The notes under the pieces are model-generated. The model worked only from the letters and a program-made list of their open reading frames with translations. It did not search any database and was not told the DNA's origin. A DNA stretch of 64,000 nt from Gammaproteobacteria bacterium. GTDB taxonomy: Bacteria > Pseudomonadota > Gammaproteobacteria > Thiohalomonadales > Thiohalomonadaceae. How positions within the stretch are numbered: the first letter of the stretch is position 1; every line of letters begins with the position of its first letter. The stretch lies in the NCBI GenBank assembly GCA_026196575.1, contig JAPHSX010000030.1, forward strand, positions 1 through 64,000, read 5' to 3'. Shown here piece after piece: positions 8,861-53,392 of the stretch. A program made the position numbers and the translations under genes.

Positions 8861-9767
8861 GGGGTCAGTTCTCGCCTTGTAGCATCTGCTTGCGAATAAC
8901 CCGCCCGATTGTCGCCAGATGCAGGCCAAAGTATTCGGCTATTTCGCGATAACTGTAAGCGCCGGTTGCATAGGCCGCCGCGATCGCGGTATTGCGCTCG
9001 CTATGCCGTCCTGCGATCACCTCCAATGATGGGGCCGGCGCTCGCCGCTGCACTTGCGGGATGCTTAGCTCATCCCCCTCCACTTTGGCTTTTGCCTGTG
9101 ACTGTTCCACGAAGGCCTCATTGCCCAGATAAATCTGCTGACGTAAATTGGCCCATACACTGTCAGTACTGTGCCCTGCCGCTACAAAATTCCGATAGCG
9201 ATTCCGTGCTACGGGCCGCGTGCCCCCGAACTGTGCCAGAACGACGGTGGTGGCCAGCCATTTGGGTGGGGCCTCTTCGCCGACCACGGCCCTGTAGCTG
9301 CTCCACGGCCAATCTCCAGGCTGAGCGACCAAGCCGGCACGAACCGGATTGAGTACCACATACCGGGCCAATTCCAGCATGTGGTTATCCTTGTCCACCA
9401 GGATCCCTTTGAACCGACCCTGGAAAAGGTGGCCGACTCGCCCATGTCGTCGGTTCGATGCCTGCGTGTAGACGCCGTTGAGCAGGCGCATCCCTTTGGA
9501 CAGGTTGGCATCCGGCGTCTCCACCACCAAGTGGTAGTGGTTGGTCATCAGGCAGTAGGCGTGGCAGATCCAATTGAACCGTTCCACCACCTCGGCCAGC
9601 GTCGACAGGAACATCCGCCGGTCTTCGTCATCCTCGAAGACCGCTTCGCGCCGATCACCGCGTGTGGTGACGTGATAGAGCGCACCGGCAAATTCAATTC
9701 GTAGAGGTCTGGCCATGTGACAACACTACACCTTTGCATGCGGTGTCACAATGCGAGAACTGACCCC
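8861..9767 (-). mobile_element. RAYT/IS200-like element bounded by 15-bp terminal inverted repeats
   Basis: GGGGTCAGTTCTCGC at 8861-8875 and its exact reverse complement GCGAGAACTGACCCC at 9753-9767 flank the transposase ORF. Confidence 0.8.
8865..9716 (-). CDS. Y1 (HUH) REP-associated tyrosine transposase
   Basis: MARPLRIEFAGALYHVTTRGDRR..., TNHYHLVVET (HUH), LFQGRFKGILVDKDNHMLELARYVVLNPVRAG. Confidence 0.95.
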   Translation of the reverse strand: MARPLRIEFAGALYHVTTRGDRREAVFEDDEDRRMFLSTLAEVVERFNWICHAYCLMTNHYHLVVETPDANLSKGMRLLNGVYTQASNRRHGRVGHLFQGRFKGILVDKDNHMLELARYVVLNPVRAGLVAQPGDWPWSSYRAVVGEEAPPKWLATTVVLAQFGGTRPVARNRYRNFVAAGHSTDSVWANLRQQIYLGNEAFVEQSQAKAKVEGDELSIPQVQRRAPAPSLEVIAGRHSERNTAIAAAYATGAYSYREIAEYFGLHLATIGRVIRKQMLQGEN

Positions 9768-35838: not shown

Positions 35839-37248
35839 CTAGGCCCAGCTCGGGATGTATCGAGCGTAACGCTTTGAATCAGGGGCCGTGGGATCTAGCT
35901 TTACCAGCCCCTGCTCAACTGCAGCAGCAATGATCTGGGAAATGGTATTGCTGCTCCCCTCTGAGACGCCAAACCTCTCCCGCAGGCTCTGATTGGTCAT
36001 TTGTTGACGCAGAACCCACTGCAGAACACAGTGCTGGTAGCAGGCGCGCACCCGATCACTGCCGTTCATATCCTTGAACCGCCGTGTCCCGTAAATGACC
36101 GCAACCGTGCGCCGGTAGCTCACCAGAAACTCCGGGGCGGGCAACTGTAAGATCTCAGCTGTCTCGATCACGCGGTCAATACCGCTGCTCTTTTCCTCAC
36201 AAATCCCAAAACGCCGCATCAGGTCGGCCAACCGCTCGTTGCGCGACTGGTATCCATCAATGAAACGCTCGACCGGTACCACTGGCTCACCGGGGTTTGA
36301 TATTTCGACACGATTGGCATACACCTCCACCACAGGTGAAGAGCCGCCAATCGTCATATCCTGATGTATCAACGCATTGGCGAGCAACTCACGAATCACC
36401 ACCTCAGGTAGTAGCTTCACATCCTTGCGGATGGCCTGTTCAATAACCTCATTTTGCGGCAACTGCCCCATAACGTAATTCACCAGGCCGACAAACCCGA
36501 CGGCATACCCCTTGTCTCCTGTAATATCAGTCCGGGTATTCATCTTCGACTCACCGTCGTACACAATCACCCTGGCCGCCTTACGACTGACAGTGGTGAA
36601 ACTCTTGAGCGACTTGGCCAGTAGCAGTGCGCCTATGTTCAGAATTGAAAATCCGGCGACTGACTGTTCGATCAAGCGCTCGGTCATCAACTTGGCGAGC
36701 ACACCGCTTTGCTCCGTCGGGTAGGGCAGGTTCAACAGGTCAAAAAATGTTTGCGTATCCAGCAACTGAATCACATCCTGTGCGCTGGCGTCTTTGAGAG
36801 CAATCTCCCCCAACCAATCCGGCTGACCCTCGGCGAAGATGCGCCGTAATTGATCCTCGCTCATGGGCACCAACTCTTCTCCTGAGCGCATGAGATAAGC
36901 GCCTTCATAGTGGTAGGCAGTGCCACGTGGCCGGGGCGGAATTACGAGCACCACAACCCGGCCGTCCGGATGCGCCACCTCTTCGATATCAACACGGAAT
37001 CCAATCGCCTGAAAGATTTTTGCCGCCATGTCGATCGGGTTATTGATGGCTGAGGTACCCACTATCGGGCGTGGTGGTTTATCGGCCACCCCAAGCAGCA
37101 GATGCCCGCCCCCTTCATTGGCAAGCGCTACGCAATAGCGAAACAGCTTTTTGTTATCGAATTGAGTCTTGGCCTCCTTGAACTCCAGGTTCTTAGTTTC
37201 AGAGCGGGCACTACGCCAAAGATCAACCTGTTCAACCGTTATCGTCAT
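35839..37248 (-). CDS. AlbA_2/Schlafen-like putative DNA-binding ATP-binding protein
   Basis: ESKNLEFKEAKTQFDNKKLFRYCVALANEGGGHLLLGV-type N-terminus; LPEVVIRELLANALIHQDMTIGG. Confidence 0.85.
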   Translation of the reverse strand: MTITVEQVDLWRSARSETKNLEFKEAKTQFDNKKLFRYCVALANEGGGHLLLGVADKPPRPIVGTSAINNPIDMAAKIFQAIGFRVDIEEVAHPDGRVVVLVIPPRPRGTAYHYEGAYLMRSGEELVPMSEDQLRRIFAEGQPDWLGEIALKDASAQDVIQLLDTQTFFDLLNLPYPTEQSGVLAKLMTERLIEQSVAGFSILNIGALLLAKSLKSFTTVSRKAARVIVYDGESKMNTRTDITGDKGYAVGFVGLVNYVMGQLPQNEVIEQAIRKDVKLLPEVVIRELLANALIHQDMTIGGSSPVVEVYANRVEISNPGEPVVPVERFIDGYQSRNERLADLMRRFGICEEKSSGIDRVIETAEILQLPAPEFLVSYRRTVAVIYGTRRFKDMNGSDRVRACYQHCVLQWVLRQQMTNQSLRERFGVSEGSSNTISQIIAAAVEQGLVKLDPTAPDSKRYARYIPSWA

Positions 37249-37643
37249 CGATTTGATTCCCCGTTGTAGTCGAGCACCGGCTGGTTCTTGCCCCCCAGTT
37301 GTCCGGAAATTCCGGACAACTGCCCCCGCGCAGCTCGCATGCGTCCTCGACCGCGAACCGAGCAAGCCTGGAACCAGACGGCGACGGTCGCCTCCGGGTT
37401 GTAGTGTTTGACGCTGCGCCGAACCTGTCGCTCTCCCTCCTGGCGAACTACCGAGAAATCCTCGGTAGTTGCAGACTCCTCCAATTCATTGTCACTGTAG
37501 ATGTTTTTCAGGTGCAGGCTGATGTTATCGGTGGAGGTGGCGAACAACTCCGCCATCTGGCTCTGCGTCACCCACAGGGTCTCACTTTGCAGACGCACCT
37601 CGACCTGATGATTGTCGGTTTCAAAAATAACAATGTCACGCAT
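37245..37643 (-). pseudogene. Truncated RhuM-family protein with repeat-derived C-terminus
   Basis: IVIFETDNHQVEVRLQSETLWVTQSQMAELFATSTDNISLHLKNIY.. is RhuM-like up to KHYN, then becomes unrelated sequence containing a 25-bp palindrome. Confidence 0.7.
37297..37321. repeat. 25-bp perfect palindrome AGTTGTCCGGAAATTCCGGACAACT
   Basis: 12-bp arms around a single central base. Confidence 0.95.
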
Positions 37644-37730
37644 AGCGACTCCTTGAACCGGCCTTGCTCCCTGTGATGAAACACCCCCTACGGGGTGTGG
37701 CGAAGTGCTTTTGCGTGGCATGCAGGCGGA

Positions 37731-39086
37731 TCATCCGGCGGCTGCCTGTTCGACCATCGCCTCGGCATCGGGGAGGCGGAGTTGGCCGGAGAGGAGCTTG
37801 GGGAGGAGGGTGTCGCGGAGGTTGGTAAGTGTTGAACTCTGTTCGTCTAATACTTTACGCCGCGAATTGTATGATTCAATCTGACCCAAGTAGCCGTCAA
37901 AAACTCCTACTCTTGGAATTGTTACACTTCTCGCATAAACAGCATTCCTATTCACACCAGGAACAGCTGAATCCGCACCCATTGATTTGATGTCAATTAA
38001 GCCGAGCGTCTGGTACAGCCAGTAGAGTGGTACATGCGACTTATTAACAACAAAGAAAACTGTGTCAATTGGAAAGAAGTCATCTTCGACCCAATACAGT
38101 GATCCTACGGTTCCTTTCCTACCAACAACAATTCCTGGTCCATCAACAAGCTTTTCATTATGAAGGCCAGATATTCCACCTGAACCGAATACAGGCACAT
38201 CTCCATCAATACGTTTTGATGCGGGCAGTGATTTGCCGTATGCAAGTTCTATAACATCCCCAATTGATTTAACCTCCCACCCCTCCGGCACCCACCCCAT
38301 CTCATCACTGAAGACGAAGCGGTTGGGGAACTGTTGCTGAATCGCTTCGGGTCGCTCCCGGCCTCCTGCCTCCCGCGACACTAGCACATCCCTGTGCGTC
38401 GGGAAGGGTTTGCGCTTGTCGCCCAGTGCCTTACGAATCTCGGCGCGGGTTTGCAGGGGTTCGGGGATGGGGTTGCCCGCCGCGAGGGCGTTGTCGATGA
38501 CCGGGTCGAAATCGACAAACCAGCTCTTGAACAGCGCCTGCGCCATCGCCTCCAGCGTGGCGTTCATCTGGCGGTTGAGTTCGATTTTGTCGTCGAGGGT
38601 GCCGAGGATGTAGGCGATGGATTTTTGTTCTTGCAGTGGAGGCAATGGAATGGGTAACTCGGCGATTGCTTTACCCGTTAAGTGCTTGATCGTTGTACCA
38701 GTGAAATAAGGCTCCAAAGCACCGGTTTTGCCTGCCCAAAGAAACCAGTAATGGAGGAAGCGGTTATCTAGCGCTTCTTTCGCTCTGATTCGATGAAGAG
38801 CCTTTTGAATCTTCATCCCAGGGATTTGCTCTTTCCAGATTGCACATCGACCCGGTTCACCACCCTCACAAACCACAAGATCTCCATCCTTGAGACCATA
38901 CCGCTCGTGCTCGTTCTCCTCGAAACGCATTTGAGCTAATTCATCGATATCAAAACTACCCCAGCGAACATTTTTGTTGCCTAGATAAGGGAAAAAGTCG
39001 CCGCGATTTTTTTCCTTATCGAGCATCTTGCCCAAGCATGAATCTACATGCTCACCCAAGCGGACTGTTGGCCAATCAGCCGGCAT
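37731..39086 (-). CDS. hsdS: Type I restriction-modification specificity subunit S
   Basis: Two target-recognition domains; LPIPLPPLQEQKSIAYILGTLDDKIELNRQMNATLEAMAQALFKSWFVDFDPV. Confidence 0.95.
   Translation of the reverse strand: MPADWPTVRLGEHVDSCLGKMLDKEKNRGDFFPYLGNKNVRWGSFDIDELAQMRFEENEHERYGLKDGDLVVCEGGEPGRCAIWKEQIPGMKIQKALHRIRAKEALDNRFLHYWFLWAGKTGALEPYFTGTTIKHLTGKAIAELPIPLPPLQEQKSIAYILGTLDDKIELNRQMNATLEAMAQALFKSWFVDFDPVIDNALAAGNPIPEPLQTRAEIRKALGDKRKPFPTHRDVLVSREAGGRERPEAIQQQFPNRFVFSDEMGWVPEGWEVKSIGDVIELAYGKSLPASKRIDGDVPVFGSGGISGLHNEKLVDGPGIVVGRKGTVGSLYWVEDDFFPIDTVFFVVNKSHVPLYWLYQTLGLIDIKSMGADSAVPGVNRNAVYARSVTIPRVGVFDGYLGQIESYNSRRKVLDEQSSTLTNLRDTLLPKLLSGQLRLPDAEAMVEQAAAG
38350..38397 (-). 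repeat. In-frame two-hairpin insertion in hsdS
   Basis: Minus strand GCACAGGGATGTGC-TAGT-GTCGCGGGAGGCAGGAGGCCGGGAGCGACC; encodes HRDVLVSREAGGRER. Confidence 0.65.
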
Positions 39087-40680
39087 AACCTAGCTCCAAC
39101 AAATTCTCCTTAATCACCGCATCGAGCTTCTCCGACTCCGCCATCTGCCGATAAAGCATCTGACTCAACTCCCCCATCTTCTCCTCAAACGGCACCCCAT
39201 CATCCTCAATCTCCGCCGCGCCAACATAACGCCCCGGTGTGAGCACATAGTCGTTGGCCTTCATCTCATCGAGTGAGGCGGCCTTACAGTAACCCGCAAC
39301 ATCCTCATAGCCCCCATCCTTAACCTCACCCCGCCACGCATGGTAGGTACGGGCGATCTCGGCGATGTCATCAGCCGTCAGCTCCTTGTGGGTGCGGTCG
39401 ACCATGCTGCCCATATTGCGGGCGTCGATGAAGAGGGTCTCGCCCCGGCGGTTACGAAAACGTGGTTGGCCGGAAATTGCTCCTGCATTTCCGGCACTTC
39501 CGCCATCCCTGGCGGTCGCTCTCTTGTTTCGTGCCAAAAACCACAAGCAGACGGGGATCTGGGTGGTGTAGAAGAGCTGGCCGGGGAGGGCGATCATGCA
39601 GTCGACCAGGTCGTTTTCGATGAGTTTCTGACGGATCTCGCCCTCGCCCTTGGTGTTGGTGGACATGGAGCCGTTGGCCAGTACGAAGCCTGCGGTGCCG
39701 TTCTCCGAGAGCTTGGAGACCATGTGCAGGATCCAGGCGTAGTTGGCGTTGCCGGTGGGAGGGACTTCGTAACCGGCCCAGCGCGGGTCGTCGGTCAGCT
39801 CGTCGGTGGCGCGCCACTCTTTAAGATTAAATGGTGGATTGGCCATGATGAAGTCGGCCTTGAGGTCGGGGTGCTGGTCCTTGAAGAAGGTGTCGGCGGG
39901 CACCTCGCCGAGGTTGGCGGAGATGCCGCGAATGGCCAGGTTCATCTTGGAGAGCTTGTAGGTGGTGGCGGTCTGCTCCTGGCCGTAGATGGAGATGTCC
40001 TTCTTGCTGCCCTTGTGGCTTTCGACGAATTTGATCGACTGCACGAACATACCGCCGGAGCCGCAGCAGGGGTCGTAGATCTTGCCGCGGTAGGGTTCGA
40101 TCATCTCGGCGATGAGGTTGACCACGCACTTGGGGGTATAGAACTCGCCGCCGCCCTTGCCCTCGGTGGCGGCGAACTTGCCGAGGAAGTATTCATAGAC
40201 CCGGCCGACCACGTCTTGCTCGTTGTCCTCCACGGTGTCGATGTTGTTGATGGAGTCGATGAGGGCGGAGAGCTTGCTCACGTCCAGCCCGAGGCGGGAG
40301 AAGTAGTTATCGGGCAGGGCGCCGCGCAGGGTCTTGTTGTGTTTCTCTACGGTGTGCAGGGCGGTGTCGATCTTGACCGCGATGTCGTCCTGCTTGGCCT
40401 GCTTCTGGATGAAAGACCAGCGCGACTCTTTGGGCAGGTAGAAGACGTTGTGCATGGCGTAGAACTCCACCATGTCGACATAAGCCTCCTTGCCCTCGTC
40501 AATGAGTGCCTGCTTGCGCTCCTCGAACTTATCCGAGACGAACTTGAGGAAGATGAGGCTGAGCACCACATGCTTGTACTCGGAGGACTCGACCGTACCG
40601 CGCAGCTTGTCGGCGGTATCCCAGAGGGTCTGTTCGAAGCTCTTCTGTTTCTTTGGAGCGCTCTTCTTGTTGTCTGCCAT
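39076..40680 (-). CDS. hsdM: Type I restriction-modification methyltransferase subunit M
   Basis: YEYFLGKFA..KGGGEFYTP; IYDPCCGSGGMFVQS; IMANPPFNLKEW. Confidence 0.97.
   Translation of the reverse strand: MADNKKSAPKKQKSFEQTLWDTADKLRGTVESSEYKHVVLSLIFLKFVSDKFEERKQALIDEGKEAYVDMVEFYAMHNVFYLPKESRWSFIQKQAKQDDIAVKIDTALHTVEKHNKTLRGALPDNYFSRLGLDVSKLSALIDSINNIDTVEDNEQDVVGRVYEYFLGKFAATEGKGGGEFYTPKCVVNLIAEMIEPYRGKIYDPCCGSGGMFVQSIKFVESHKGSKKDISIYGQEQTATTYKLSKMNLAIRGISANLGEVPADTFFKDQHPDLKADFIMANPPFNLKEWRATDELTDDPRWAGYEVPPTGNANYAWILHMVSKLSENGTAGFVLANGSMSTNTKGEGEIRQKLIENDLVDCMIALPGQLFYTTQIPVCLWFLARNKRATARDGGSAGNAGAISGQPRFRNRRGETLFIDARNMGSMVDRTHKELTADDIAEIARTYHAWRGEVKDGGYEDVAGYCKAASLDEMKANDYVLTPGRYVGAAEIEDDGVPFEEKMGELSQMLYRQMAESEKLDAVIKENLLELGYAG
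39468..39512 (-). repeat. In-frame two-hairpin insertion in hsdM
   Basis: Minus strand GCCAGGGATGGC-GGAAGT-GCCGGAAATGCAGGAGCAATTTCCGGC; encodes ARDGGSAGNAGAISG. Confidence 0.7.
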
Positions 40681-53118: not shown

Positions 53119-53392
53119 CAGGAATTGCTTGCACCGCCGTCGAAGCGGGTCAACCCGGATGTTTTATGAATACGGATGATCATCACGCCGTATATTGGTT
53201 GCACAGTGGATTTTTTTTAGGAGCGGTGTAGTTATTCATACACACGACTTATGTCCATGGATGGACGGTATTCCGGCGCGCCAGTGAAAAAAATTCGCTG
53301 TGCCATCAAGAGACAAGCGAGGGCATTCGTAATTCATGAAACATCCGGGTTAGAATCCCCCACCGTATTGCATAACCATTCAGGAGAGTAGC

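Follow-up and report, generated by a model that had tools for sequence, protein, structure and literature searches.

The short two-hairpin segments in hsdS and hsdM of the window (the whole 64,000-nt stretch that was analysed) are very probably two members, from different subfamilies, of a dispersed palindromic element that is non-autonomous and about 51 bp long, inserts precisely, is retained in frame and would be mobilised in trans. The matching segments proposed by the sequence-only reading were found again on the minus strand, and that reading was also right that 18 nt separate AGGGAT from GCAGGA in both copies and that AGG-GAT is read in the same frame in the two genes. The hsdS segment (38401-38351, minus strand) reads CGACGCACAGGGATGTGCTAGTGTCGCGGGAGGCAGGAGGCCGGGAGCGAC, with the translation THRDVLVSREAGGRERP in frame s2, and the hsdM segment (39518-39468, minus strand) reads CGACCGCCAGGGATGGCGGAAGTGCCGGAAATGCAGGAGCAATTTCCGGCC, with the translation TARDGGSAGNAGAISG. 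The second hairpin of the hsdS copy is made up of a GTCGC/GCGAC outer stem, a GGGA/GGGA internal loop and an inner GGC-AGGAG-GCC hairpin.

Table 1. Positions of the two elements, their hairpins and their host genes in the window.
Feature	Positions	Strand	Basis
51-bp two-hairpin element, hsdS type (family B)	38351..38401	-	cmsearch 80.4 bits, E 1.3e-14
hsdS element hairpin 1, GCAC-AGGGAT-GTGC, ANGGAX hexaloop	38384..38397	-	sequence; compensatory changes, columns 6:17 and 7:16
hsdS element hairpin 2	38351..38379	-	sequence; covarying column 24:50
51-bp two-hairpin element, hsdM type (family A)	39468..39518	-	BLAST copies in G004, G005, G006, G019; alignment A3
hsdM element hairpin 1, CCGCC-AGGGAT-GGCGG, ANGGAX hexaloop	39500..39515	-	hairpin scan
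hsdM element hairpin 2, GCCGGAAAT...ATTTCCGGC, AGGA loop	39469..39495	-	sequence
hsdS, host of the family B copy	37731..39086	-	ORF; HsdS homologues and PDB matches
hsdM, host of the family A copy; overlaps hsdS start	39076..40680	-	ORF
Both hsd copies jointly	38351..40680	-	neither element matched a curated structured RNA family (Rfam; E up to 1)

The case for the element rests on homology, because the literal motif is not above chance: with up to two mismatches we counted 11 matches in the window against 6.9 expected, and 12 of 100 shuffles reached as many. By BLAST against 20 genomes of the order, the hsdS segment had matches in 10 (best 95-96%, E 5e-19) and recovered a second copy in the source genome, inside metH (G000:C64), while the hsdM segment had matches in 5 of the 20 (best non-self match 92% over 51 bp, E 4e-15). 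A chance resemblance between two variable loops, for which the insignificance of the literal motif in the window would speak, is hardly credible beside homologues elsewhere at about E 1e-15 to 1e-19 and stems that covary, and on these comparisons it is already refuted. The covariance model of the hsdS family ranked the hsdM element next among the sources searched, though weakly (17.7 bits, E 0.11). Both types share the order CGAC-stem-ANGGAX-stem-NNARTG, and the second hairpin proper to the hsdM type has paired variants of its own, with a stem that is altered yet still paired in L013, L014 and L464 (alignment A3). The hsdM segment belongs to a sister subfamily, which has the 5' module in common with the hsdS type but differs from it in the second hairpin.

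The sequence-only reading had taken an absence of further literal copies from the genome as grounds for giving up the element, and as worded this nearly came about, with only two exact occurrences of AGGGAT-N18-GCAGGA in the source genome; literal copies are scarce there because individual copies differ in stems and spacer, and the element family stands. The covariance-model search that it had proposed did find further copies: the hsdS-type model (R1) matched 54 of the 369 sampled Gammaproteobacteria genomes at E 1e-6 or better. In G345, a genome of 2.4 Mb, we counted at least 110 copies, with 28 in G294, 23 in G132 and few in the source genome. Almost none were present among the plasmids, phages and viral contigs searched. 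Copies were also seen on contigs labelled as a Klebsiella pneumoniae MAG and a Phycisphaerae MAG (L111, L141), placements that are likely binning errors or recent transfer.

The element consensus, CGACGCACAGGGAAGTGCTAGTGTCGCGGGAGGCAGGATGCCGGGAGCGAC, was built from 118 copies recovered in a scan of public genomes that yielded at least 119 stretches, and the pattern of the scan itself fixed the 3' part. The length was exactly 51 bp in 137 of 138 distinct copies. Among the copies used for the consensus, stem 1 occurred as GCAC:GTGC, GTAC:GTAC, GTGC:GCAC and GTCC:GGAC (45, 25, 15 and 6 copies, respectively) and stem 2 as GTCGC:GCGAC and GCCGC:GCGGC (66 and 28 copies, respectively). Pairing was kept in 98.3% of the cells of alignment A1, against 91.3% after shuffling and less than 50% in slid controls, and double changes numbered 42 against 11.0 in the shuffled alignments. 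The loops read ANGGA in 204 of 220 distinct copies (loop 1) and AGGA in 206 of the 220 (loop 2), with N and X variable; the pair of GGA-loop hairpins is what selection keeps. Mutual information revealed one extra pair outside stem 1, at columns 1 and 21 (C:G 141, T:A 81, n=232), opposite a nearly invariant G2/A20. This pair could be an extension of the stem or a guide-like contact with the target base. We set the target/guide reading aside, since a simple extension of hairpin 1 accounts for the covariation; the empty sites do not discriminate between these readings, both ends being C.

Variants and relatives of the unit were also observed. An enlarged form of 69 nt, a multiple of three, has 18 additional nt in hairpin 1 and recurs in G345 (for example L364 4656-4724, L393 1521-1589) and in valS of G040. 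An intergenic single-hairpin relative, GTCC-ATGGAT-GGAC, lies in the window at 53253-53266 on the plus strand (context TTATGTCCATGGATGGACGGTATT), and others of this kind were found in L183, L098 and L147. In G019, loci L018-L041 are composite intergenic repeats in which several hairpins with GGA loops lie in either orientation; one such repeat adjoins an IS200-like gene (L217). Finally, a short ORF of the window with a RhuM-like start (37245-37721, minus strand) crosses another palindrome at its C-terminal end (TTGTCCGGAAATTCCGGACAA near 37300) and resembles a gene cut short at a repeat.

The host genes include valS, leuS, metH, dnaG, uvrA, gcvT, tgt and hsdM, and many of them are unrelated and confirmed by Pfam. 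In the consensus, frames s0 and a1 are closed by stops, and s1, s2, a0 and a2 are open; the predominant gene frame, s1, yields 17 residues, the flexible peptide DAQGSASVAGGRMPGAT. A long ORF runs through the element in 99 loci; s1 was the longest in 74 of them, and Pfam gave s1 to 8 of the remaining 25. When s1 ORFs were sampled, 18 of 20 had a Pfam match in that frame. Exceptions were read in s2 (the window hsdS, the DEAD-box helicase gene at L174 and possibly L099, at a contig edge) or antisense (L142, L186, L119, L108, L121, L185 and, at its C-terminus, L190). A codon model applied to G345 and G132, strict enough that about half of their copies were not called intragenic, placed gene copies in s1, a0, s2 and a2 (34, 14, 6 and 2, respectively), and no copy with coding flanks was in the closed frames s0 or a1, an outcome with a chance of about (2/3)^56 under free choice of frame. 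By the same model none of 13 relatives of 52-53 nt was called intragenic, with one more at an edge, and three copies in these two genomes had same-strand coding flanks in different frames, so that they may break genes. A looser gene caller assigned 88 copies to genes (62 sense, 26 antisense) and left 39 as intergenic. From the frame evidence, the insert is probably translated into the host protein.

Related genomes preserve the corresponding empty sites. At three loci of G294 (L419, the host of which we take to be an Mpl-type ligase, L427 and L432) the element is missing in both congeners, where the flanks are contiguous at about 86-92% identity, and none of these three nucleotide-level sites carries a target duplication. 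At many sites the element has inserted precisely, as a block of 51 bp, and target duplication is lacking. Elsewhere the same site holds inserts of different length, namely 51/51/69 nt at L420 (ValS), 51/51/162 nt at L426 (presumably IspE), 51/51/93 nt at L433 (presumably PabB) and 51/63/12 nt at L425 (presumably CoaBC). Every one of these orthologous-site lengths (12, 51, 63, 69, 93 and 162 nt) is divisible by three, and the sites hold nested related hairpins. Of the L425 orthologues in the two congeners (L444 and L461, in G040 and G187), one keeps a remnant of 12 nt, GCCGGGAGCGGC, and the other has a form of 12+51 nt; this series reads as decay in steps of three.

The hsd genes themselves gave the same kind of comparison, and the alignments that the sequence-only reading had called for revealed homologues of both proteins without the segment. 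The HsdS of G091 aligns as EQRKPLP-PE-IQQQFPSRF against DKRKPF-PTHRDVLVSREAGGRER-PEAIQQQFPNRF of the window. The window HsdM and the L173 HsdM, which share 77% identity, each have an element at a position where the other has an empty site, and the HsdM of L097 (N. eutropha) agrees with the L173 insertion site. The structure 3khk matches HsdM at E 2e-132 without the inserted segment. The HsdM site is not the normally contiguous stretch that it had been taken for, since homologues have a loop of variable length there. In L251, L263 and L253 this loop holds other repeat-like peptides (RHSGESRNP, PSPSGRGVGGEG and PSPPGRGAGVRA), and on these alignments the HsdM loop is a site that gathers inserts of several families. 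An AlphaFold model of HsdM places the segment (387-408) in a low-confidence coil between two strands, which is consistent with a loop, but the model (mean pLDDT 52) is too poor to count as evidence.

The empty sites in congeners, the reciprocal HsdM pair, the Pfam-confirmed hosts and the lack of closed-frame copies all support the earlier proposal of a palindromic element that is mobile, enters genes in frame and can be translated; mobility itself we infer from the distribution and the empty sites. A mobilising enzyme supplied in trans, most likely a single-strand, hairpin-recognising transposase of the Y1/IS200-like kind, would act on the structured strand. New copies would land widely, those in genes would persist only if their length, their frame and a tolerant loop let the protein go on working, and the host proteins would thereafter bear 17 additional residues. 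Genes for Y1-type transposases are present in 18 of the 20 genomes of the order; none of the 20 Y1-transposase loci examined was flanked by a full element, and one IS200-like gene had family-A-like hairpins nearby. The window also has a Y1 (IS200/REP-type) transposase-like gene (9357-9680, minus strand; PF01797 match), with no element copy alongside. Spread could instead be enzyme-free, through replication slippage, template switching at hairpins or recombination between copies, and the head-to-tail tandem arrays with their exact 51-nt period, the nested composites at orthologous sites, the lack of a linked transposase and the other hairpin repeats in some flanks would fit such a process. Copy-to-copy recombination surely contributes to the tandem and nested forms, but the many precise-ended insertions in unique sequence of unrelated genes argue against an enzyme-free origin, which we hold to be somewhat unlikely. 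It is far less probable still that gene copies are removed or skipped, by an RNA intron or a translational bypass, and so are absent from the protein: their strong secondary structure within conserved genes might suggest it, but the multiple-of-three length and the avoidance of closed frames would then be needless.

A further reading adds a function to mobility. The element may be a portable CsrA/RsmA-binding RNA site, with ANGGAX of hairpin 1 and AGGAX of hairpin 2 together binding a CsrA dimer to the transcript of the host gene or titrating CsrA, and the loops would then be conserved because CsrA binds them. The SELEX motif of CsrA is RUACARGGAUGU, in a hexaloop mostly over four or fewer base pairs, and CsrB repeats read CAGGA(U/A/C)G (PMC7652899); ANGGAX is placed directly on a stem (PMC4005645). 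The element does have a short hairpin whose loop presents GGA within ANGGAX, and its ANGGAX and AGGAX loops over short stems resemble those of high-affinity RsmE/CsrA sites and of the CsrB/RsmZ-type hairpins, but the latter belong to a single regulatory RNA whereas the element is dispersed DNA in genes and spacers. Besides the conserved loops, each of the 46 element-bearing genomes of the class sample with a good assembly has csrA, compared with 280 of 314 genomes overall (p 0.003, with no kinship correction). Where neighbouring genes point the same way, however, the intergenic copies between them have no preferred strand (12 sense, 12 antisense), the ratio of G-U to A-C mismatches (48:34) does not tell an RNA constraint from a DNA one, and two incomplete assemblies of genus g5 (G005, 92% complete, and G006, 82%) have the element while csrA was not found. 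For these reasons we keep CsrA binding as a rival and not as the main explanation. That the element combines a protein-coding insert with a two-site candidate CsrA/RsmA-binding RNA is a prediction we consider unlikely.

In-frame palindromic elements are best known from Rickettsia and from scattered REP cases. Like the Rickettsia palindromic elements (RPEs), which are short palindromic repeats, in frame within genes of conserved proteins and translatable (PMC3733652), our element is an in-frame palindrome in unrelated protein genes with empty sites in relatives, but it differs in sequence, in its gammaproteobacterial hosts and in its two-hairpin 51-bp unit with GGA loops. RPE-4 and RPE-6 are CGTC-tagged REPs, defined by an unpaired CGTC tag at one end, an 8-9-bp stem and a loop of 4-5 (PMC3733652). 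Such a tag and stem are absent from the element, with its consensus YGAY, 4-bp stem and hexaloop. The comparison with Rickettsia holds for function (in frame, translatable) and not beyond it. GTAG REPs are gammaproteobacterial hairpin repeats too, some of them intragenic, including in uvrA and tRNA synthetases (PMC3733652), but the element consensus ends in CGAC without a terminal GTAG, no RAYT gene flanked by full element copies was found at the 20 Y1-transposase loci, and the element occurs in head-to-tail 51-nt arrays. ERIC and the enterobacterial RU elements are likewise small, non-autonomous and able to supply codons; RU elements are MITE-like and 103-168 bp long (PMC2759123), whereas the element has 51 bp in two separate hairpins, with neither terminal inverted repeats nor, at the three empty sites examined, target duplication. 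No earlier description of the sequence, the peptide or a link between CsrA and palindromic repeats was found in the openly searchable literature and Rfam. The kind to which the element belongs, represented by RPEs and intragenic REPs, is already known (PMC3733652).

The multiple-of-three series at orthologous sites, together with the empty sites, is a natural record of how protein segments are gained and reshaped, and the copies reveal where essential enzymes can accommodate 17 additional residues. The match of the loops to the CsrA motif poses a directly testable question. If CsrA binding were true, the spread of the element would extend Csr control to housekeeping mRNAs, such as those of aminoacyl-tRNA synthetases, primase, methionine synthase and restriction-modification genes, or would form a dispersed CsrA sponge.
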